A stretch of 64,000 nucleotides of DNA from Bryocella elongata (GTDB taxonomy: Bacteria > Acidobacteriota > Terriglobia > Terriglobales > Acidobacteriaceae), in NCBI RefSeq assembly GCF_900108185.1, contig NZ_FNVA01000001.1:1178001-1242000 (forward strand). Reading direction: 5' to 3'. The notes beneath the pieces are model-generated. The model had not been told where the DNA came from. It saw only the letters and a program-made list of their open reading frames with translations, and searched no databases. Shown piece after piece: positions 12,144 to 34,412 of this stretch (position 1 is the stretch's first letter; each line of letters opens with the position of its first letter). The translations under genes and the position numbers were made by a program.

Positions 12144-15100
12144 ATGAACTTGCGCAGCAGAGCACTTCGCGTTGTCTTTTCGTCCGTTCGCTCCATCGCC
12201 GTGTCGCGTGTTGCAGCAATTCCGCTGCTGATTGTTGGCATCGGAGCGTTGCTTGGCCCCGCGGCCCTGGCACAGCAACAACCAATGCGCGTGCCTTCGT
12301 CACACGTGCGCGCGCAAGTGCTCGATCATACTGCGGCCTACGTCGCGCCGATGGCAGATGACGAGCAGCTGCATCTGTCCATCGTGCTCCCATTGCACAA
12401 CCAGGCGGCGCTCAGCTCCCTACTCTCCCGCCTGTACGATCCCACCAGCCCGGATTACCGCCACTTCCTCACGGTCGCGCAGTTCACGCAGCAGTTTGGC
12501 CCTTCGGAGGATGACTACAACGCCGTCGCCGCCTACGCTCAGGCGCAAGGGCTCACTGTGGGTACCGCGCCCGGGAACCGGCTCGTCGTGCCCGTCAGCG
12601 GTCCCGTCGTCGCGATCAACGCGGCCTTCAACGTGCAGATGACGATGTACCAGCACCCGACGGAGAATCGCAGGTTCTTCTCTCCGGATCGCGAGCCGTC
12701 CCTGCGTCTCAGCGTGCCCGTGTCGCACATCTCGGGCATGGATAACTACTCCATACCGAAGCCCTTCTCGCGCCGCGCGATGGCCGTGCAGCAGGCTGCT
12801 GTCGCCGTCAACGGCTCTGGTCCTGGAGGGTCCTACCTCGGCAGCGACATGCGAGCCGCCTACTACGGCGGAACGGTATTGGACGGTACCGGACAGGCCG
12901 TTGGGTTGCTGGAGTTTGGTGGCTACGATCCCGCCGACGTCGCCCTCACATTCACGAATTCCGGGCAGACCAACAACGTTCCGATCAATAACGTTGCCCT
13001 CGACGGCGCCAGCGTGGGAACAAACCAGTACGGAGACGGCGAGCAGGTCCTGGACATCGTTCAGGCCATCGGCATGGCGCCGAACCTCAGCCAGGTGCGC
13101 GTCTACATCGGGAACGCAACCTCCGGGACCGACGACGCGAGCATCCTCAATGCGATGGTCTCCGAGAACCTCGCGAAGCAGTTGAGCTGCTCCTGGGGAT
13201 GGCGGCCGGCGGACCCAACCGCCGCTGATGTCTTCTTCCAGGAGATGGCCGCGCAAGGGCAGAGCTTCTTTGCCGCCTCCGGTGACTCCGGCGCATTCGA
13301 TATCGCCATCAACCCGTTCTTTTTTCCTGCCGAGGACGACTACGTCACGACCGTCGGAGGGACTCACCTCGTGACGGCCGGCCCCGCCAGCACGTGGGTC
13401 TCGGAGACCGTGTGGAACTCCGGGGGAGCAGGAAGCGGGGGTGGCATCAGCCCGGACAGCATTCCACTACCCTCCTGGCAGGCGGGCCTCGCGAACTCCG
13501 CCAACGGCGGCTCGACCACCCTCCGCAACGTTCCTGATGTCGCAATGGAAGGCGACTTCGACAACTACTCCTGCCAGGGTGGTGTATGCGCCGGGGACTG
13601 GGCCGGCACCAGCTTCGCAGCCCCGCGGTGGGCGGCCTTCATGGCGCTGGTCAATCAACAAGCCGTCGAAAATGGCTCCGCGACCACAGGTGGCATCGGC
13701 TTCCTGAACCCTCCGCTGTACCAGATCGCGCAGGGAGCGAACGCTGCGAGCGATCTGCACGACATCACCAGCGGAAACAACCAGACGTCCAATCAACCTA
13801 CCTGGTACAGCGCCGTCGCCGGTTATGACCTCACCACCGGCTGGGGCAGCGCCAACGGACAGAGCCTGATCAACGACCTCGCGGGTCCGCAGGTCCCGGG
13901 TTTCTGGCTCGTGAGCTCCCAATCCACCGCCACCGCCAACCCCGGCGGCACCGGATCCACCACGATCAAGGTCGTGGACGCGGGCGGTTTCAACGAAAGC
14001 GTCAACCTGGCTGTTACCTCCACGCTTCCTACCGGCGTCACTGCGGCCTTCGCCTCCAACTCGGCGACGGGATCGGACGTTCTTACCTTCACGGTCGCTG
14101 GCACCGTCGCATCGCAGACGGTGCCCATCACTGTGACGGGCACCTCCGGAACTCTCACCCAGTCCGTCAACTTCGCGCTTGTCATCCACTCGGCGAGCTT
14201 TGGCCTGGCCGCGTCGCCAGCTTCCGTGTCGGTGCAGCCGGGCAACTCGGGAACGACCACGGTCACCGTGCGACCGCTGTATGGTTTCAACGGGACGGTA
14301 GCTCTCTCCGTCTCAGGTCTGCCGACGGGCGTGACCGCTGCATTCTCTCCAACGTCGACCAGCGGAACCAGCACGCTGACCTTGACGGCAGCCTCGAACG
14401 CCACCGGCGGGAACAGCGTTCTCACTATCACCGGCACCTCGGGATCGCTCACCGCCACCACCACCATGGGAGTGATCGTCCAGGCGCCCAGCTTCAATAT
14501 CGACCCGCTGGAGACCTCGGTCACCGCCGGACAGGGCGGCTTCGGGTCGACGTACATCGAGGTCCTTGCGCAGTACGGTTTCACCGGCAACGTCACATTG
14601 TCAGCCTCGAACCTGCCGGCCGGTGTCACGGCTTCGTTCTCCCCCAATCCTGCTCCCTCTGGAAGCTTTGTCACGGGAACGTTTAACGTCAGCAGCACCG
14701 CTGCGGTCGGCTCCACTCCCGTCACGATCACCGGGGTTTCGGGGAGTCTCACCTCCTCGGCAAACGTCACGCTCAACGTCGTTCAGCCCACCTTCACTCT
14801 CTACACGTATTCCCCCCTCAGCCTGGGGCAAGGTACTTCGGGGACGCTCTCTGTCTCCGTGCAGGGGCAGTACGGCTTCCAGGGCTCGGTTGCGTTCTCC
14901 GTCTCGGGCCTGCCGCGTGGAGTCACCGGCGTCTGGGCTCCCAATCCATCTACCTCCTCCACTTCGCTTTACCTCAACGTCAGTAAGACGACACCTGCGG
15001 GCACGTATCCGCTCACCATCACCGGCACCTCGGGCGGCCAGACCGTCACCACCACGGCGACCCTGAATATCCTGGTGCCGACGTTCTCGCTCGCCAACTA

Positions 15101-18100
15101 CTTCACCCCGGCCATTCCTCCGGGCACCAGCGGCACCGCGTACATCTACGTGAACGACGAGTACGGCTTCAATGGGAATGTGAACTTCTCGGTCTCCGGA
15201 CTTCCCAGTGGTGTCACCGCATCGTTCTCGCCGGCAAGCTCGACCACATCCAGTTCACTCAATCTGACGGTTGGCAGCGCGACTGTGCCTGGACAATACA
15301 ACCTCACCGTCACCGGAACGTCGGGCAGCCAGACGCAGACCGTTACCGTCCCCCTCTCGGTGCCTGCACCAACCTTCGGCATCTCCACGAACAACTACTA
15401 CCTGACCCTGAATCCGGGGACGTCGCAGAGCACTCCGGTCACGATCTATCCGCAGTACGGCTTTGCGGGCAGTGTTGCCTTGTCGGTTTCGGGTCTGCCA
15501 ACGGGCGTTACGGCGTCGTTCTCGCCCAATCCAGCTACCGGCAGCACCACCCTGACACTGACGGCGACAACGGCAGCCGTAAACGGAATCTACCAGCTCA
15601 CGCTCACCGGAACCGGGGGCGGTGTCACGCAGTCGACTACGCTCCAGCTCACGGTCGCTCCGCCATCCTTCACTCTGGGTGCGGGATCTCCCGCCCTCGG
15701 TCCCGGCACTTCCACCTCGGCCTATGTCTACGTCTACGCCCAGAACGGGTTCACGGGGGCCGTCAGTCTTGGGGCCTCAGGACTTCCCTCCGGCCTCACG
15801 GCTTCGTTCGTGCCCAACCCGACAACGTACTCCAGCCAGCTGAACCTCACTGCCAGCAGCTCTCTCGCGCCCGGAGTCTATCCGCTCACCATCACCGGCA
15901 CCTCCGGTTCGCTCACCGCCAGCACTACGATCCAGGTCACCGTCGGCGCCCTGGGCTTCACACTTGCCGGGCCGTATTACGTCACCGTGGGCCAGGGGTC
16001 CACGGTGAATTCCTATGTTTACGTCAACGACCAGTACGGTTTCGCCGGCCCGGTCACCCTCTCCATGGCTGGCCTCCCCGCCGGGATCACGGCGACATTC
16101 GGAACCAATCCCACCACGTACGAAACCCCGGTCGTCTTCACCGTCTCACCCGGCGTTCCTGCAGGGCCGTACTCTCTCACCCTGACCGGAACCTCGGGGG
16201 CCCTGTCCGCGACGGATCCCTTTACGCTCACCGTGGTCGCGCCTACGTTCAGCCTCTACGGGGGCTACAGCGCCTCCGTGAACCAGGGCGGCTCCTCGAC
16301 CACGACAGTCACGGTCTCACCCCAGAACGGCTTCTCCGGTAGCGTGGCGATGAGCGTCTCCGGACTTCCAGCCGGCGTGACCGGAACCTTCTCGCCAACT
16401 TCGACGACCAGCAGCAGCGTGCTCACCTTCGCAGCCACCGCGTCAGCGGCTCCTGGCACCTATCCGCTGACCGTCACGGGTACGTCAGGCAACGTCACTC
16501 AGACCTTGTCCTTCCAGCTCGTCGTCAACGGCGGCAGCTTCACGCTCGCGGCTGCGCCTGGAGAGGTCGAACTGCCCGCGGGCTCGTCCGGCAGAACTGC
16601 GGTCTCCATCGCTCCGGTCAACGGATTCTCCGGCAACGTCAGCCTCGCTGCAACCGGCGTGCCCGCGGGCGTCACCGCGACGTTCTCTCCTGCCACTGCA
16701 ACGACCTCGAGCGTGCTGACCTTCACGGCCAGCAGTGCGGCGGCGCCCGGCACGGCGACGATCACCATCACTGGCACCTCGGGCACTCTCTCGGGCAGCG
16801 CCAACGTGCAGCTGAACGTGCTCTCCGCCCAGAGTGGCAGCGCCACCACACTCTCGCTCTCCTCGGGCGGCAGCCCCGTATCCACTGTCGCCGCGAGCTC
16901 GAAGGTGACCGCGACCATCAACGTCACCTCCGGCTCGAACGCCTTGTCTGCCGGACAGGTCTACCTCTGCGACGCTGCGGCCTCCTCCTGCGGCATCAAT
17001 CAGAATCGCGGCGTGGTGCAGATCGGCAGCAACGGCTCGGGATCTCTCGCATTCGTGCCAGGCATTGGCGTGCACTCCTACGTCGCCATGTTCGCCGGCA
17101 TCTCCGGTGTCGCAGCCAGTACCTCCGCGGCGGCTCCGCTCACCGTCTCGGCAACACTGCCAAGCACCACGACCATCGCCCAGAGTGGTTCCGCCGGCAA
17201 CTATACCCTGACCGCAACCGTCACCGGGCAGGGCGACGTGGCTCCCACGGGCACGCTCTCCTTCGTGGACACGACCAACGCCAACGCCGTCCTCGCGGCG
17301 TCCCCGCTACAGGCCGGAACGCCCACGCTCACCCAGACCGCCGCCCAGACTCCATCCGGCGACAGCTACACCAAGAGTGTTGTTGCGGCTGATGTGAACG
17401 GCGATGGCATCTCCGACCTCGTGGAGCTCGGTTCGCAGACCAATTCGTTGCTCATCGTACTCGCCAAGGGAGATGGCACCTTTGCCGCTCCGCAGGCCAT
17501 CGCTCTTGGGACGAGCCCAGGCAGCATGGCGCTCGGCGACTTCAACCGCGACGGCCACATCGACATCGCCATCTCTGCGCCGAATCTCAATCAGGTGCTG
17601 ATCTACCTCGGCAACGGAGACGGCACCTTCACAGCTTCGACCAGCATCGCTCCCACTGCCGCAGGGCCTGGGGCGCTTGCCGTGGCGGACTTCAATGAAG
17701 ACGGCCTGCTCGATATCGCAGTGCTGAACACGAACAGCGGGGTCCTCAGTCTTCTGCTTGGCAACGGAGACGGCACATTTACGCCGGGCCAATACAGCCC
17801 TGCCGTCCCGAACGTGTCACTCCTGGCGCAGGGCGATTTCAACGGCGACGGCATCCCGGACCTGATTGCAGCCGGCACCAACTATTCCACCTCCCAGCTC
17901 ACGGTGCTGCTGGGCAACGGGGACGGATCCTTCACGGCGGCTCCTTCGCAGGCCTTAGGCACTGCCTATCCGGTCTCCCTCGCGACCGGCGACTTCAATC
18001 TCGACGGGAAGCCTGACGTCGTTCTTCTCTTCTCCTATGGGTCAGAGGTCCTGCTGCTCGGCAACGGAGATGGAACCTTTACTACCGGCACGGCGCCGCC

Positions 18101-20807
18101 TTTCACCGGTACCCCCACGGCAGCGGCCGTGGCCGATATCAACCTCGACGGTAAGCCGGACCTCATCACCAACTCCGGGATCCTGCTGGGGAATGGCGAT
18201 GGCACCTTCACCGCGTCTGGGCCTTCCTCCGTCAACATAGGGGGAAGTTCCATAGCTGTAGGTGACTGGAACGGAGATGGCATTCCTGACGTCGCCACGC
18301 CCGCCAGCTACTACGGTTCCGTGAACCTCGGGCTGTCCCAGTTGTCGCAGACCTCCACTGCAACTGCCACCAACGTGACTCCCGACGGCACAGGCCCGCA
18401 CGCAGTGAAGGCCAGCTATCCGGGCGACACCAGCTTCGTGGCGAGCGCCTCCTCGACCACCAGCATCACGGCCCAGCCCGGACCGCCCGCAGTCACCGTT
18501 ACACCGGCCACCCCGAGCATCAACGTCGCCCAGACCCTCTCGGTGACCATCGCGGTGAGCGCCGGAACTTCCAACCCCACACCTACCGGGACCGTGACCC
18601 TCGCCGGAGGCTCCTTCACGTCGCCCGCAGTCAGTCTTAGCGCCGGAGCCGCCACCATCACCGTCCCCAAGGGAGCGTTCTCCACCGGGTCGGCGACCCT
18701 CACCGCAAGCTATCAGCCCGACGTCGCGAGCTCGCAGTTCTACACGGCGGCCACGGGCATCGCTCCGATCAACGTCACCCTCATCACGCCCATCGTCCAT
18801 GTCGGCATCTCCGGCTCCTCGATCACCACGACAACCTCCACCACCGCGAACATCTCGGTCACGGACCCCACCAGCACGGGCGTACCCACCGGATCCGTCA
18901 CGCTGACTGGAGGAAGCTTCACCTCAGCGTCGGTCGCTCTGAGCAATGGAGCGGCCACGATCACCATCCCTCCCGATTCGCTGGCTTCAGGCTCTGACCC
19001 CGTCTCCGTCACGTACACTCCCGACTCCGCCGCGACGGCCGTATACGCTTCGGCAACGGGAACGGCGCAGTTAGGAGTCACCAAGACGACACCGACGCTG
19101 ACCTGGTCGACACCCGCCTCGATCACCTACGGCACCCCGCTCGGCGCCGCGCAGCTCAACGCGACCTCGCCGGTTCCGGGCACCTTCACCTACACGCCGG
19201 CTGCCGGAACCGTCCCTGGCGCCGGTCCGCAGACACTCTCGGTCCTGTTTACTCCGACGGATGGCGTCAACTATGCGACCGCAACTGCCAGCGTTACGCT
19301 GACGGTAAACCAGGCGACGCCGATCATCACCTGGCCAGCGCCAGCAGCTATGTCCTATGGCACAGCGCTATCTGCGACGCAGCTCGACGCGACCGCTTCG
19401 GTCGCCGGAACGTTCAGCTACAACCCGGCGCTCGGAACAATCCTGAGCGCCGGCCCCGAAACCCTGTCGGTCACCTTTACCCCGACGGACGCGGTGGATT
19501 ACAACTCTGCTTCCGCTACGACCACCGTCTCGGTCACTCAGGGAAATCCCTCGGTGACGTGGCAGACTCCCGCCGCCATCACCTACGGCACGCCTCTGAG
19601 TGCAGCACAGCTCAATGCGACGTCGACCATCGCAGGAACCTTCAGCTACGTTCCCGCAGCGGGTACGGTGCTTGCTGCAGGCTCGCCGGCGCTATCGCTC
19701 ACGTTTACTCCCAGGGACGCTGTGGACTACCAGGCCACAACGAGCACCGTCACGCTGGCGGTCAACCGCGCTCCCTTGAGTCTCTCCGCCGCGAACGTCT
19801 CGCGCGTCTACGGTACGACCAATCCAGCCTTCACGGGCTCTGTGTCGGGAGCGGTCAATGGCGACAGCTTTACCGAGAGCTTCTCGACCGCAGCCAGCAC
19901 AGCCAGTCCTGCGGGAACCTACGCCATCGTGCCCTCTGTGACAGGAGCCAACGCTGCCAACTACACGATCGCCGCAGCGAACGGCACACTGACCATCACG
20001 CAGGCCGCCAGCAGCACGTCGCTGGCGCTCTCGAACCAGAACCTCACCTTCACCGCGACTGTCTCGTCCGCGACCAATGGCACGCCTGGCGGTACGGTCA
20101 GCTTCTACGCTGGCCAGACCCTGCTCGGTACGGGAACCCTCAACAACGGTGTGGCCATCTACACCGCCAGTTCATTCCCGGCCGGCAGCGTCACCCTGAG
20201 CGCGCAATATAGCGGAGACATGAACTTCCTCTCCTCCGCCTCCACCGCAACGCCCGTCCTCGCGATGACGTCCGCAAGCAATGCGCTCAACGTCTCCACC
20301 GCCGGCACCGTCACGGACAACCTCACGCTCGGTGTTCCCACTGGCTATGCGGGGACCGTGCAACTCTCATGCTCAGGACTGCCGCAGCAGGCGACCTGCA
20401 ACTTCCAGCCGGCCACCCTGTCCTTCTCCGGAACGTCCAGCAGCGGCGCCACCACGCTGACCATCGGTACCGGCGGCCTGGCAAGTCTTCGGGCTCCTGG
20501 GCCTCCCGGCTCCGGGCCGAGCACGATGCGATGGGCCGCAGTTCTGGGGCTGCCCGGTTTCCTGCTTCTGGGTGTCCGGGGCCGCCGCCGGCGACTACAC
20601 AGTGCGCTGCGCTCGCTCGCCATGCTCCTGCTGATGTGCGGCGCTGCGAGTCTGGTCACCGGGTGCTCTGGCGCTGGATCCTCAGGATCAGGATCTTCGG
20701 GGTCAGGCTCGACGAAGTCGCCCGCCGGAACTTACACGGTTCAAGTGACAGCGACCACACCGTCTGGCGCGACCCAGTCCGTCAACATCGCACTGACGGT
20801 GCAGTAG
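12144..20807 (+). CDS. Giant surface protein: S53 sedolisin fused to Ig repeats, FG-GAP propeller, MBG domains and membrane hairpin
   Basis: 2887 residues, 313 codons longer in repeats than any neighbour. Signal peptide to about residue 44; pro-kumamolisin activation domain about 45-200; S53 peptidase about 225-580 with triad Glu300, Asp304 (GDGEQVLD) and Ser490 (GTSFAAP), oxyanion Asp381 (SGDSGAF) and calcium ligands Asp540/Ile541 and GYD 560-562. Then ten tandem Ig-like repeats of about 97 residues (586-1563; GFxGxVxLSVSGLPxGVT), another beta domain, a seven-repeat FG-GAP propeller (about 1735-2060; DxxxDGxxD calcium loops) nested in an Ig domain, two more Ig domains, three MBG repeats (about 2314-2540), MBG_2, one Ig_3 and a last Ig split by a hairpin: helix 2793-2811, RGRRRR, helix 2818-2841 ending in LVTGC. 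Likely an acid-active endopeptidase displayed at the cell surface. All key catalytic residues are intact. Confidence 0.92.
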   Translation: MNLRSRALRVVFSSVRSIAVSRVAAIPLLIVGIGALLGPAALAQQQPMRVPSSHVRAQVLDHTAAYVAPMADDEQLHLSIVLPLHNQAALSSLLSRLYDPTSPDYRHFLTVAQFTQQFGPSEDDYNAVAAYAQAQGLTVGTAPGNRLVVPVSGPVVAINAAFNVQMTMYQHPTENRRFFSPDREPSLRLSVPVSHISGMDNYSIPKPFSRRAMAVQQAAVAVNGSGPGGSYLGSDMRAAYYGGTVLDGTGQAVGLLEFGGYDPADVALTFTNSGQTNNVPINNVALDGASVGTNQYGDGEQVLDIVQAIGMAPNLSQVRVYIGNATSGTDDASILNAMVSENLAKQLSCSWGWRPADPTAADVFFQEMAAQGQSFFAASGDSGAFDIAINPFFFPAEDDYVTTVGGTHLVTAGPASTWVSETVWNSGGAGSGGGISPDSIPLPSWQAGLANSANGGSTTLRNVPDVAMEGDFDNYSCQGGVCAGDWAGTSFAAPRWAAFMALVNQQAVENGSATTGGIGFLNPPLYQIAQGANAASDLHDITSGNNQTSNQPTWYSAVAGYDLTTGWGSANGQSLINDLAGPQVPGFWLVSSQSTATANPGGTGSTTIKVVDAGGFNESVNLAVTSTLPTGVTAAFASNSATGSDVLTFTVAGTVASQTVPITVTGTSGTLTQSVNFALVIHSASFGLAASPASVSVQPGNSGTTTVTVRPLYGFNGTVALSVSGLPTGVTAAFSPTSTSGTSTLTLTAASNATGGNSVLTITGTSGSLTATTTMGVIVQAPSFNIDPLETSVTAGQGGFGSTYIEVLAQYGFTGNVTLSASNLPAGVTASFSPNPAPSGSFVTGTFNVSSTAAVGSTPVTITGVSGSLTSSANVTLNVVQPTFTLYTYSPLSLGQGTSGTLSVSVQGQYGFQGSVAFSVSGLPRGVTGVWAPNPSTSSTSLYLNVSKTTPAGTYPLTITGTSGGQTVTTTATLNILVPTFSLANYFTPAIPPGTSGTAYIYVNDEYGFNGNVNFSVSGLPSGVTASFSPASSTTSSSLNLTVGSATVPGQYNLTVTGTSGSQTQTVTVPLSVPAPTFGISTNNYYLTLNPGTSQSTPVTIYPQYGFAGSVALSVSGLPTGVTASFSPNPATGSTTLTLTATTAAVNGIYQLTLTGTGGGVTQSTTLQLTVAPPSFTLGAGSPALGPGTSTSAYVYVYAQNGFTGAVSLGASGLPSGLTASFVPNPTTYSSQLNLTASSSLAPGVYPLTITGTSGSLTASTTIQVTVGALGFTLAGPYYVTVGQGSTVNSYVYVNDQYGFAGPVTLSMAGLPAGITATFGTNPTTYETPVVFTVSPGVPAGPYSLTLTGTSGALSATDPFTLTVVAPTFSLYGGYSASVNQGGSSTTTVTVSPQNGFSGSVAMSVSGLPAGVTGTFSPTSTTSSSVLTFAATASAAPGTYPLTVTGTSGNVTQTLSFQLVVNGGSFTLAAAPGEVELPAGSSGRTAVSIAPVNGFSGNVSLAATGVPAGVTATFSPATATTSSVLTFTASSAAAPGTATITITGTSGTLSGSANVQLNVLSAQSGSATTLSLSSGGSPVSTVAASSKVTATINVTSGSNALSAGQVYLCDAAASSCGINQNRGVVQIGSNGSGSLAFVPGIGVHSYVAMFAGISGVAASTSAAAPLTVSATLPSTTTIAQSGSAGNYTLTATVTGQGDVAPTGTLSFVDTTNANAVLAASPLQAGTPTLTQTAAQTPSGDSYTKSVVAADVNGDGISDLVELGSQTNSLLIVLAKGDGTFAAPQAIALGTSPGSMALGDFNRDGHIDIAISAPNLNQVLIYLGNGDGTFTASTSIAPTAAGPGALAVADFNEDGLLDIAVLNTNSGVLSLLLGNGDGTFTPGQYSPAVPNVSLLAQGDFNGDGIPDLIAAGTNYSTSQLTVLLGNGDGSFTAAPSQALGTAYPVSLATGDFNLDGKPDVVLLFSYGSEVLLLGNGDGTFTTGTAPPFTGTPTAAAVADINLDGKPDLITNSGILLGNGDGTFTASGPSSVNIGGSSIAVGDWNGDGIPDVATPASYYGSVNLGLSQLSQTSTATATNVTPDGTGPHAVKASYPGDTSFVASASSTTSITAQPGPPAVTVTPATPSINVAQTLSVTIAVSAGTSNPTPTGTVTLAGGSFTSPAVSLSAGAATITVPKGAFSTGSATLTASYQPDVASSQFYTAATGIAPINVTLITPIVHVGISGSSITTTTSTTANISVTDPTSTGVPTGSVTLTGGSFTSASVALSNGAATITIPPDSLASGSDPVSVTYTPDSAATAVYASATGTAQLGVTKTTPTLTWSTPASITYGTPLGAAQLNATSPVPGTFTYTPAAGTVPGAGPQTLSVLFTPTDGVNYATATASVTLTVNQATPIITWPAPAAMSYGTALSATQLDATASVAGTFSYNPALGTILSAGPETLSVTFTPTDAVDYNSASATTTVSVTQGNPSVTWQTPAAITYGTPLSAAQLNATSTIAGTFSYVPAAGTVLAAGSPALSLTFTPRDAVDYQATTSTVTLAVNRAPLSLSAANVSRVYGTTNPAFTGSVSGAVNGDSFTESFSTAASTASPAGTYAIVPSVTGANAANYTIAAANGTLTITQAASSTSLALSNQNLTFTATVSSATNGTPGGTVSFYAGQTLLGTGTLNNGVAIYTASSFPAGSVTLSAQYSGDMNFLSSASTATPVLAMTSASNALNVSTAGTVTDNLTLGVPTGYAGTVQLSCSGLPQQATCNFQPATLSFSGTSSSGATTLTIGTGGLASLRAPGPPGSGPSTMRWAAVLGLPGFLLLGVRGRRRRLHSALRSLAMLLLMCGAASLVTGCSGAGSSGSGSSGSGSTKSPAGTYTVQVTATTPSGATQSVNIALTVQ
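13899..16830 (+). repeat. Ten tandem ~290-bp coding repeats (Ig-like domains)
   Basis: Each unit encodes about 97 residues with the frame [ST]F.L ... QYGFxGxVxLSVSGLPxGVTASFSP ... GTYPLTITGTSG. Copies differ throughout, so they are old duplications rather than recent amplification, but short identical patches could still allow slippage or misassembly. Confidence 0.85.
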
Positions 20808-31007: not shown

Positions 31008-34000
31008 TTACTTCACCGTCAGTGAAAAAGTGAATGTCTTGACGATGTTGCCTGCCCCGCTCGTCGGCACCGTGGTGGTGCCATTCGGCGTTCCGGTCAT
31101 CGTCACCGTCACGGTCGAGGTTCCGCCCGGCGTCTGGTTCGCAACGGAGCTTCCGCAGCCGCTCAATCCAAGCAACGCCGAGCAGGATGCTACAACGACC
31201 AAAGCGGTGAGCATGCTGTTGCGAATCGAGAGCCACTTCCGCCGCCGCTGCGCACCGAGCAGCAACAAGCTTCCAAACGGGAGCACCCAGGCAACGGTCG
31301 AAGGCGCCGGGGTGTCGGTTGTGATCGTCAAGGTGACGGTCTGCGGTGCAAGGTTGGTGCCCGTGAACTGCACGGTTGCTGGGATAAAGGCGCACTGCGT
31401 GTTTGCGGGCAGCCCCGAACATGCGAAGTCCACACCGCCGATATAACCGCTGATGGGTGCAATGGTGAACGTGGTGCTAGCCGAGCCCGGCGCGCTGACG
31501 GTCATCGACGCCGGCGTGCTGGATACAACATATTGCTGCGAGATGAGCGCCACCTGCACGCCGTTCGACGTCGATCCTCCGAAGCCGGAGTCGCCGCTGT
31601 ACACCGCCGTGATGGTGTAGGTGCCCGCCGGCAGAGTGGTTGTCGTGACCGTCGCAATCCCCGAGTTGTTCACGCTGGCCGCCGCAAGAACCGTGCCTCC
31701 GCTCACGAAGTTGACGGTGCCAGTCGGCTGGCTCGACGTGACCGCCGAGGTCACCTTCGCCGTGAGCGTGATGCTCGTTCCCGGTGGAACACTGACAGCG
31801 CTCGTCGCGCTGCTCGTAAGAGTGGTTGTGGTCGGAGCCAACACGACGACGATCGTCGCGGTCTGCCCCGCGCTGGCGGCATAGTTTGCATCGCCACTAT
31901 AGGTTGCGTCGATGGTATCGTTGCCGGCTGGGAGGCCGGTGATCGTAGCCGAAGCCTGACCATTGGTCAGAGCCACAGTCGTGTAGGTGACGCCGTTCAC
32001 AAGGAAGGTCACGGTGCCCGTCGGCGTGGTCGTTGAGCCCTGCGACGTCACCACGACATTCGCCGTCACCGAGGTTCCATACGTGGTCGTTCCGCCAGGC
32101 GTTATCGTCAACGCGGTCGTTGTCTTGGGCAGATTGATGCCTGTGCCCGTGAAGGCGCCAGTTACAGGCGATGCATTCACTGCATTCGAGCTGATGGTCA
32201 GCGTCTCCGTGCGCACGCCCTGGGCCGTCGGATCAAACGATGCCGCGACGGCGCAACTCGTACCGCTGGCGATCGACGCCCCGTTCGCACAGGTGTTTGT
32301 CGCAGTGGTGCTGATGGTGAAGTCGCTCGTGTTCCCTCCAGCCGAGTACAGCGGCGAGCCAAAGGTCAGGGAGGTATCGCCACCGTTGCTGAAGATCAGG
32401 CTCTGCGCCGAGGTCGCTGCACCTACGTTGCTCTTGCCAAGGTTCAGCAGCCCTGCAGTCCGCTCGATCTCTGTGACCGAAGGCCCATTGGCATCCGCCA
32501 CGTAGAGATTGCCCGCGCTATCCAGTGCCGCCGACACCAGTTTGCTGAAGCCGCTGCCCAGGGAGGTTGTCGCGTTGGTGTTGTAAGACCCACCGCTGTA
32601 TGCGATGCGGGTCACCGAGGTCCCGCTGTTCTGCACCACATACAGGCTGCCCGCATCGTCGACTGCAATCGTGCCGGGAGTGCTCAGCCCGCTGACAGCT
32701 GTCGTCGCGACTCCGCCGCTAACGGTGGATATCGTCCCCGCCGCGCTGTCGGAGACATACAGCGTGCCGCTGGCATCGAATGCAAGGCCTGCGGGAGCGG
32801 TAAGCGCCGCCACCGTCATGCGGCTTGTGAAGTTCAACGTACCGCTCTGATTCGGAATGCGCAGCACCGTACCAGCGCCGGTGTTCGCGACGAAAAGGCT
32901 GCCTCCGGCTCCGAACTGCAGTGACGAAGGGCTGTTGAGTCCCGTGACCACGGCGGTCAGCGTGCCGAAGGTTGTCCCGTCAAAGGGGATCTCGAAGATT
33001 GTGTTTGTTCCCAGGCTCGCCACGTAGACACTGCCGTCCGGCCCCACAGCGACAGCACCGGGCAATGACAGCCCTGAAGCGATCACGGTTGCGGTCGTCG
33101 CTCCCGCGGGGAGATAGGACACGGTTCCCTTCGCGCTGTCCGTCGCAAAGACATTCCCGGCCGGATCGACGGCAACACCTGCAGGAGTGGCCCAGCCAGA
33201 GCCCAATGCGATCTGCGTTCCCGGGTCCACCGTCAATGCTGCTCCCGAGCCCTGACCGGTCACGGCGACCTCTCCAGCAAGTCCCGCTGCGGTGAGCAAT
33301 ACCACGGCATCCTTGCGCATACCCGGCGTGGATGGCGTGAACGTAAGGTCGATGGTGCAGGAAGCTCCAGGCGCGTAGGTTCCGGTTGCCGCGCACGAAC
33401 CCGTCCCGGCGTTCGCGACCTCAGTCGAGACCCCCACGCCTGACGCGTACCGGAAACCCGTCAACGTCGTCGCAGCGTTGAAGACTACATTCACCGTCTG
33501 CGTCGCAGAAGTGGAACCGACCGCCACTGCGGCGAACCGCACATTGCCGATCGTGTTCTTGAAGACGTTCGTGCCGTCCGTCGCGTAAAGAGTTCCGTCC
33601 GCACCCACAGCGATGTCATTCACCGAACTCTGATTGAGGACAGTGAACGCATTCGCCCCGGACAGTGCGCCGTTGATGTACGGCACCTCCACGACCGAGC
33701 TTCCAGTGGTCACGAAGACGTCACCCGCAGCGTCAGCGCGCAAGCCCGCGATGGGACTGAACGTGGCACTCACTGCGGTAGCGCTGGTTGCGCCTGCGGG
33801 CAGGCTGTACAGCACACCGCCCGTCGAGTACGCAAGATCACCTGCAGCATCGGCAGCAACATGTGAGTTCGCATCCAGCGTCACGCCCGTCACCGTCGAG
33901 CACACACCGGCCGAGGTGATCTTGAACAACGGTGTCTCATTGTTTCCGGCGACGTACACATTGCCAAGACCGTCGGCGGCAACGTCCTGCGTGCCCAGGT

Positions 34001-34412
34001 AGTACCCATCCAGCGAGTTACACGCCGGAGCCAGATCCGTTGCCGCGCCACCGTTGATCGCGACCTGCCACAGGTGGCCCGCATAGTCGGTCATGTAGGC
34101 ATAGGTGCTGTTCGCCGCTACGCCCTTCGGATAGCCTCCGCCACCTGAGGGAGCGGTATACAGCGTGATCTCCGCGCCTCCGCCTGCCGGCCGTTCAGCA
34201 AGAATGCCGCTCCCCGGCCGCGTGAAGAAGAGGTCTCCCGCCGGGTCCGTGGCCAACGCCTGGGCTCCCGACAGATTCGTGTAAGGCATCGTGCGGTACG
34301 AAGTCACTGCCGCGGGTACCACAAATGTCTGTGCCCTCATGGCGACCGCACCGGCCGCGACTCCCACCGCCAGCAAACAGCTCTTTTTCCATCCGGAAAG
34401 ATTGCGCATCAT
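31008..34412 (-). CDS. NHL-propeller / Ig-domain surface protein with C-terminal membrane hairpin
   Basis: 1134 residues, exported (signal to MRAQ, about 27). Two NHL-type beta-propellers (about 30-280 and 395-640; repeats such as GVAVDPAGNVFATDSAKGTV and GLAFDASGTLYVSDSAAGTI) are each followed by an abnormal-spindle-like Ig domain (GTYAPGASCTIDLTFTP; SGTSCAVAASFDPTAQG). Two Ig_3 domains follow (about 750-940: YSGDANYAAS, YSGDSGFGGS). The last Ig domain is interrupted by helix 1037-1055, RRRK, and helix 1066-1086 ending LSGC. No catalytic motif. It sits 35 bp downstream of the TonB receptor in the beta-glucan operon, so a role in holding glycan at the cell surface is plausible. GAGGAG precedes ATG 34412/34409. 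Confidence 0.8.
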   Translation of the reverse strand: MMRNLSGWKKSCLLAVGVAAGAVAMRAQTFVVPAAVTSYRTMPYTNLSGAQALATDPAGDLFFTRPGSGILAERPAGGGAEITLYTAPSGGGGYPKGVAANSTYAYMTDYAGHLWQVAINGGAATDLAPACNSLDGYYLGTQDVAADGLGNVYVAGNNETPLFKITSAGVCSTVTGVTLDANSHVAADAAGDLAYSTGGVLYSLPAGATSATAVSATFSPIAGLRADAAGDVFVTTGSSVVEVPYINGALSGANAFTVLNQSSVNDIAVGADGTLYATDGTNVFKNTIGNVRFAAVAVGSTSATQTVNVVFNAATTLTGFRYASGVGVSTEVANAGTGSCAATGTYAPGASCTIDLTFTPSTPGMRKDAVVLLTAAGLAGEVAVTGQGSGAALTVDPGTQIALGSGWATPAGVAVDPAGNVFATDSAKGTVSYLPAGATTATVIASGLSLPGAVAVGPDGSVYVASLGTNTIFEIPFDGTTFGTLTAVVTGLNSPSSLQFGAGGSLFVANTGAGTVLRIPNQSGTLNFTSRMTVAALTAPAGLAFDASGTLYVSDSAAGTISTVSGGVATTAVSGLSTPGTIAVDDAGSLYVVQNSGTSVTRIAYSGGSYNTNATTSLGSGFSKLVSAALDSAGNLYVADANGPSVTEIERTAGLLNLGKSNVGAATSAQSLIFSNGGDTSLTFGSPLYSAGGNTSDFTISTTATNTCANGASIASGTSCAVAASFDPTAQGVRTETLTISSNAVNASPVTGAFTGTGINLPKTTTALTITPGGTTTYGTSVTANVVVTSQGSTTTPTGTVTFLVNGVTYTTVALTNGQASATITGLPAGNDTIDATYSGDANYAASAGQTATIVVVLAPTTTTLTSSATSAVSVPPGTSITLTAKVTSAVTSSQPTGTVNFVSGGTVLAAASVNNSGIATVTTTTLPAGTYTITAVYSGDSGFGGSTSNGVQVALISQQYVVSSTPASMTVSAPGSASTTFTIAPISGYIGGVDFACSGLPANTQCAFIPATVQFTGTNLAPQTVTLTITTDTPAPSTVAWVLPFGSLLLLGAQRRRKWLSIRNSMLTALVVVASCSALLGLSGCGSSVANQTPGGTSTVTVTMTGTPNGTTTVPTSGAGNIVKTFTFSLTVK

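Follow-up and report, generated by a model that had tools for sequence, protein, structure and literature searches.

An ordinary lipoprotein signal, recognised by Lgt and LspA, consists of a positive region, a hydrophobic stretch, a small residue before the Cys and a flexible linker after it, with an inferred N-in/C-out orientation. We describe here a tail that carries the same elements at the opposite end of a giant protein: the C-terminus of a 2887-residue open reading frame (ORF) in a 64,000-nucleotide stretch of Bryocella elongata DNA (contig NZ_FNVA01000001.1, positions 1,178,001 to 1,242,000), which in its whole length is referred to below as the window. Unlike the ordinary signal, that of the tail lies about 2800 residues into the exported chain and after another helix, and its cysteine, Cys2841, is near the protein end (residue 2841 of 2887), whereas an ordinary lipoprotein signal stands at the N-terminus of the preprotein. 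An article considered as a precedent for an internal lipobox (PMC11833123) was set aside, since it describes an N-terminal lipoprotein signal instead.

MYXO-CTERM is a C-terminal module with an invariant Cys, a helix and an Arg cluster, of which it has been proposed that the Cys is lipidated, Lgt being a candidate enzyme, and whose order Cys, helix, Arg has been called a topology inverted relative to lipoproteins (PMC11980579). The tail is also C-terminal and also has an invariant Cys, a helix and an Arg cluster, but its order is helix, Arg, helix, Cys and immunoglobulin (Ig)-like strands, and MrtX was not found in the genome of the window. PEP-CTERM with its exosortase and GlyGly-CTERM with its rhombosortase share with the tail a helix and an Arg cluster near the C-terminus of exported proteins; the tail differs from the former in lacking a PEP motif and in not requiring an exosortase, and from the latter in that rhombosortase is matched only below the cut-off in the window's genome. 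In SEA and GAIN domains and in chaperone-usher donor-strand complementation, one fold is made of two chains held non-covalently. The tail, whose two-chain state is hypothetical, would resemble these systems if its cutting were real, whereas the folds and the cutting routes differ.

The tail of the host protein and the family NF058595

The tail belongs to an already catalogued family, and the family itself is not new. The NCBIfam model NF058595 (invert_tail, "lipo-invert putative C-terminal anchoring domain") matches residues 2769-2887 with an E-value of 4.3e-18 and 65.7 bits, against a curated cut-off of 37 bits, and the match is near full-length at the C-terminus, covering model positions 2-113 of 113; residues 2699-2887 alone score 58.4 bits. 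Pfam gave no model for the tail region. The novelty that a previous sequence-only reading of this DNA had claimed for the module therefore falls, since NF058595 already covers it, and no difference between the family and our tail emerged in a comparison with the model's name and description line, where the anchoring function is itself called putative. The present analysis adds the register of the split Ig domain, its structural model and the invariant lipobox-type end of the second helix. In a body of literature lacking most subscription journals, we found no paper on "lipo-invert" or NF058595 and none on Acidobacteria and C-terminal sorting; among the papers listed for a C-terminal lipobox and similar terms, none concerns such a tail by its title.

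The features of the host ORF and of the tail are as follows (all on the + strand).

12144..20807, +, host ORF, 2887 residues; in order, a signal peptide, a pro-kumamolisin activation domain with a sedolisin-like region, ten Ig-like units, FG-GAP repeats, Big_3_5/MBG domains and the split-Ig tail
20241..20465, +, residues 2700-2774, the last Ig domain before the insertion (its N-terminal part); modelled strands begin at 2707 and continue to model residue 77
20466..20708, +, insertion, residues 2775-2855, 81 residues; ends approximate, taken from the best-scoring deletion, which is weak alone; a low-confidence stretch of the model
20520..20576, +, hydrophobic helix 1, residues 2793-2811, STMRWAAVLGLPGFLLLGV; predicted to run from outside to inside
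20577..20615, +, Arg-rich loop, residues 2812-2824, with six Arg; RGRRRR is 2812-2817; predicted to be cytoplasmic
20616..20663, +, hydrophobic helix 2, residues 2825-2840; predicted to run from inside to outside; helix at model residues 120-138
20655..20666, +, lipobox-like V-T-G-C2841; the LVTGC of the sequence-only reading starts one codon before
20667..20708, +, Gly/Ser linker after Cys2841, read from the sequence and in keeping with the linker composition of the family
20709..20804, +, C-terminal part of the Ig domain, residues 2856-2887, holding the last two strands (model residues 163-172 and 178-187); matched by the C-half profile described below

In the host protein, Pfam places the pro-kumamolisin activation domain at residues 66-187 and recognises FG-GAP repeats, Big_3_5 and MBG domains, while the ten Ig-like units upstream of the tail were located by a motif search within the ORF. 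The catalytic part was matched by no Pfam model; we call it sedolisin-like on the strength of the activation domain and of the sequence GTSFAAP, which we take to be a sedolisin motif.

The tail runs from helix 1 through the Arg-rich loop to helix 2, which ends in LVTGC2841, and then through the Gly/Ser linker to the last two Ig strands. The last Ig domain had been read as broken by helix 2793-2811, RGRRRR and helix 2818-2841 with LVTGC, and these residue numbers are confirmed (residues 2818-2841 are LHSALRSLAMLLLMCGAASLVTGC). The Ig domain, however, does not start at 20345: the AlphaFold2 model places its start upstream, near 20262. A 19-residue Kyte-Doolittle (KD) scan of the whole protein gives its two strongest peaks at the N-terminal signal peptide (2.19) and at helix 2 (1.78, over residues 2825-2843), and the 13 residues of the loop hold six of the protein's 50 Arg/Lys. 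Helix 1 is weakly hydrophobic (1.37) and several non-membrane stretches of the host protein are equally high, so that its call rests mainly on the family. A set of 98 distinct tails matched over nearly their full length was assembled, to which loci of the window's genome contributed 17, relatives 56 and a named collection 25; the best 15-residue KD window of helix 1 exceeds 1.0 in 96 of them. Across the family the layout is kept while the sequence varies; one alignment held the window tail and 23 tails picked from 53 rows, and another omitted one of its 32 rows (L111).

The split Ig domain also contains a Cys pair, C2743/C2752 (20370-20399), which the ten upstream units do not have and which perhaps forms a disulphide. 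Two Cys lying 4-20 residues apart before helix 1 are found in 82 of the 98 tails by a loose rule and in 57 by a narrower one.

Register and predicted structure of the split Ig domain

The last stretch of the tail had been described as exactly the second half of the Ig unit seen ten times upstream. The register of this claim stands, and exact identity is too strong. A profile of the C-terminal half, built from the last 30 residues of 80 tails, none of them from the window's genome, matches all ten upstream units at the same place in each, starting 25-32 residues past the anchor of the unit, with 25.5-42.5 bits, against a maximum of 9.8 bits elsewhere in residues 561-1560. Scored alone, the ten unshuffled second halves reach 31.9-49.3 bits, while 300 shuffled second halves do not exceed 16.9 and the first halves of the units do not exceed 8.0. 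The C-terminal part of NF058595 itself (positions 82-113) also picks out four of the upstream units. A plain Ig-unit profile made from the host protein's own units gives 12.4 bits for the N half of its tail and -5.0 for the C half, and was set aside. As judged by the C-half profile from other genomes, the C-terminal stretch of the tail is clearly in the same register as the second half of the intact Ig units.

The sequence-only reading had named beforehand, as a result that would tell against it, a structural model in which the two halves fail to pair into one Ig fold; AlphaFold2 joins both in one. The model of the tail region was built with 32 aligned sequences and its fold was judged on the predicted local distance difference test (pLDDT), the predicted template modelling score (pTM) and the strand order. 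Its mean pLDDT is 77.5 and its pTM 0.59; in blocks of ten residues, pLDDT is 82-96 in the N-terminal part, 94-96 in the C-terminal part and 45-73 in the hairpin. Strand 68-77 lies before the hairpin and strands 163-172 and 178-187 after it, and both halves are predicted with high confidence to lie in a single sandwich. An intact Ig unit, modelled with a mean pLDDT of 96.9, has the same strand order; its strands 60-67 and 74-84 are joined by a short loop at the place that the hairpin occupies in the tail. Foldseek matched Ig/Fn3-like domains, two of them at an E-value of 0.001 or less (best 6.6e-4). Some root-mean-square deviations are large, and the insertion must have been spanned in the alignments, because these reach lengths such as 190 columns on the 109-residue target 2r39.

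The end of helix 2 and the proposed attachment of the protein

Helix 2 ends in a Cys preceded by Gly, Ala or Ser in all 98 tails, the Cys having been chosen by the preceding hydrophobic stretch and not by its neighbours. The residue at -1 is Gly in 65 tails, Ala in 27 and Ser in 6; that at +1 is Gly in 73, Ser in 15, Asn in 7, Ala in 2 and Thr in 1, and never Asp. Position -1 is special, because Gly, Ala or Ser occurs in only 49 of the 98 tails at -2 and in 20 at -3. As the profile itself could have selected the Cys, its neighbourhood was masked in the seed, and the masked profile returned 93 near-full-length tails, all of which end helix 2 in Cys, after Gly (59), Ala (27) or Ser (7). The rule first used to find this Cys was loose and would have admitted one inside the helix; a stricter rule gave the same result. 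Both sets exclude matches that do not cover nearly the whole profile. The loops between the helices sum to 419 Arg and Lys against 14 Asp and Glu over the 98 tails, and the linker after the Cys is composed of Gly (0.32), Ser (0.16), Thr (0.15) and Pro (0.12) in the 82 tails with a recognised start of the C half. The VTGC of the window protein fits [LVI][ASTVI][GAS]C, which we take as the lipobox pattern.

The sequence-only reading had proposed a dedicated surface anchor or sorting module, a helical hairpin that returns the chain outside to complete the Ig fold. Our results support a dedicated C-terminal module, the hairpin layout and the completion of the fold by the returning chain, in a topology that, like the anchoring, the sorting and the final location of the protein, is inferred. 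A plain hairpin does not describe it well, since the invariant [G/A/S]-C end of helix 2 suggests an internal lipoprotein signal. A plain two-helix anchor of the inner membrane would be neither cut nor lipidated; its Ig halves would form one covalent domain outside the inner membrane, and its Cys would serve helix packing or a disulphide. The hairpin alone accounts for anchoring in that case, the Ig fold is indeed predicted as joined, no dedicated processing enzyme tracks the tail, and half of the tails miss the strict lipobox. Such an anchor needs no Cys after Gly, Ala or Ser at the outer end of helix 2, yet one is present in 98 of 98 tails and in 93 of 93 with the masked profile, and we consider this alternative rather unlikely.

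We favour, with moderate confidence, the reading of the tail as a C-terminal membrane anchor of the NF058595 type with an internal lipoprotein signal in helix 2. The N-terminal signal peptide would export the protein; helix 1 would enter the inner membrane with its N-terminus outside, the Arg-rich loop would stay in the cytoplasm, and helix 2 would come back outward, oriented and terminated like the signal peptide of a lipoprotein. Cys2841 would be lipidated by Lgt. LspA may then cut before it, which would release a lipid-bearing 47-residue piece with no more of the Ig domain than its last two strands. Such a piece is too small to fold by itself; it would make the Ig domain of the main chain whole, and the fold, with no peptide bond, would clasp the giant ectodomain to its lipid anchor. 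Cys2841 is fairly likely to be lipidated. The LspA cut, suggested because the small residue at -1 is invariant, may occur, and we propose it tentatively. In a two-chain form of the anchor, the hairpin would first bring Cys2841 to Lgt and then be excised by two proteases, LspA and another one acting at helix 1, while the lipidated final strands would stay in the Ig domain as donor strands; we regard this form as doubtful.

The genome of the window encodes one LspA, one LolA and three Lgt homologues (G000:C4:866352-867182, G000:C16:20129-20764 and G000:C15:40030-40728); two or three Lgt matches are listed in 22 of the 27 genomes of its genus. The presence of Lgt and LspA here, and in 42 of 42 genomes that are at least 90% complete, is in keeping with the favoured reading. 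It also has two exosortases, a best rhombosortase match of 43.1 bits against a cut-off of 84, with matches below the cut-off in 14 of 14 control genomes as well, and no MrtX match at an E-value of 0.001. The two exosortases would suit a sorting signal of the CTERM type, in which an enzyme (exosortase, rhombosortase or myxosortase) recognises and cuts helix 1 with the Arg cluster and the remainder is lost, and so would the order of linker, helix and Arg cluster, which resembles the tripartite layout described for MYXO-CTERM (PMC11980579). However, exosortase is not required, because strong tails occur in half of the 14 genomes that gave no exosortase match (the 7 are G007, G020, G027, G029, G030, G035 and G053; best E-values of 3.2e-15 or less), among them G035, G007 and G053 with a completeness of 100%, 99% and 98%. 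PEP is found upstream in 1 of the 98 tails and is absent from the other 97, as from the window tail, while rhombosortase stays below its cut-off and MrtX is without a match. A conserved second helix, Cys and Ig half would moreover be pointless in such a signal, which we consider improbable. As processing enzymes, exosortase, rhombosortase and myxosortase were rejected, being either not required or without a match over the cut-off.

Several points weigh against an anchor with an internal lipoprotein signal. Lgt and LspA are near-universal, so that their presence proves nothing; no dedicated paralogue of either tracks the tail, for in order f2, whose 14 genomes all have a match to the tail, a single Lgt is listed in 10 genomes and a single LspA in 12. 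No enzyme that would cut helix 1 was found among the rhombosortase, MrtX and exosortase candidates, and if helix 1 stays uncut after an LspA cut, the main chain remains in the inner membrane and the lipid is redundant. The strict lipobox is found in 47 of the 98 tails and a relaxed one in 79, with 51 missing the strict form; the rule for the loop failed on at least one tail, with a minimum Arg and Lys count of 0 and one helix-2 span of 2. The tails are related and the masked seed was picked from NF058595 matches, so that the counts given above are not independent. A comparison with ordinary lipoproteins yielded 16 candidates mixed with false ones, was too noisy and was left unused. The Foldseek scores are modest (template modelling scores by query of 0.20-0.44 among the 50 matches listed). 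In a deletion scan on the host protein alone, removing residues 2775-2855 gave the best Ig-unit score (43.9 against 25.5), which none of 200 shuffles and none of 200 fragments reached with the junction fixed; when the deletion was re-optimised on shuffled C-terminal stretches, 3 of 40 reached 43.9, which is not significant, and the scan was dropped as evidence for that reason.

Distribution, cargo and significance of the tail

A search for the same tail elsewhere, as the sequence-only reading had proposed, shows that it is not unique to the host protein; uniqueness was the other result that this reading had named as telling against it. NF058595 gives 28 matches at an E-value of 0.001 or less in the genome of the window, and 21 proteins of this genome, read by sequence, carry the helix, basic loop, helix, Cys and last stretch, 16 of them over the cut-off and 5 below. 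Seven of the 28 rows were excluded: four are upstream Ig units of the window ORF (L020, L023, L025 and L028), L018 and L022 both belong to one ORF without a tail (L105), and L027 falls within an ORF that was not read to its end. L105 (G000:C9:300800-304900) exceeds the cut-off through repeated Ig-like halves and ends without a hairpin tail, and is likely a false positive of NF058595. The window contains a second tail.

31011..31340, -, second tail, at the end of ORF 31008-34412 (-), an NHL/Big_3_5 protein

This tail, one of the five below the cut-off, scores 22.2 bits, and the curated model therefore misses some tails.

Among the window's genome and 60 relatives, 52 of 61 genomes have a match over the cut-off. 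In a survey of 297 genomes of the phylum, in which at most 14 candidates per genome were scored, 146 match at an E-value of 0.001 but only 36 over the cut-off, and many of the weaker matches, which were not read, may be Ig repeats. Of the 36, 31 are listed genomes from the family to which the window's genome belongs, two (G272 and G328) are from another class and three are without an assignment. The strong tails of that other class, L071 in G272 and L074 in G328, lie outside the main concentration and were possibly acquired by gene transfer. None of the 14 control genomes is over the cut-off and 5 match below it. A single peptide pattern found 39 loci in the named collection, such as those of Silvibacterium bohemicum S15 (L112) and Acidobacteriaceae bacterium KBS 83 (L122), and all of their titles name Acidobacteria or groups within them.

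The Ig domain is indeed interrupted in frame, as it would be by a chance or mobile insertion without function. Such an origin is nevertheless highly improbable given the match to a curated family, the 21 proteins of one genome, the 52 of 61 genomes over the cut-off, and a layout that stays constant while the sequence varies. The tail is also C-terminal in 97 of the 98 cases, the profile ending at most 7 residues from the end of the open frame. An intein-like or mobile insertion was set aside from the layout and its variability, no dedicated model search having been made.

The cargo of the tail was surveyed with Pfam in the window ORF and 19 other tail proteins, L106 (3795 residues) being left out. 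It includes NHL propellers, Big_3_5, MBG and ASH-type Ig domains, a right-handed beta helix (L094), an endonuclease/exonuclease/phosphatase domain (L096, and a second, below the cut-off, in L098) and further pro-kumamolisin domains (L107 and L108); L090 had no Pfam match. In each of the 21 tail proteins the start is followed by a stretch resembling a signal peptide, as judged by hydropathy with a loose rule and without a control.

We conclude that this is a real, conserved and so far unexplained anchoring tail, which probably ties the protein to a membrane. It is common to many large exported proteins of the group, among them NHL propellers, sedolisin-type proteases and Ig-repeat giants, and its mechanism would therefore tell the location of a good part of the exported proteins of these organisms. 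Membrane attachment through an internal lipoprotein signal, set within a folding unit and dividing it, would be unusual, and if the two-chain anchor were true, some twenty exported proteins of the cell would be tied to a membrane by fold complementation in place of a peptide bond.

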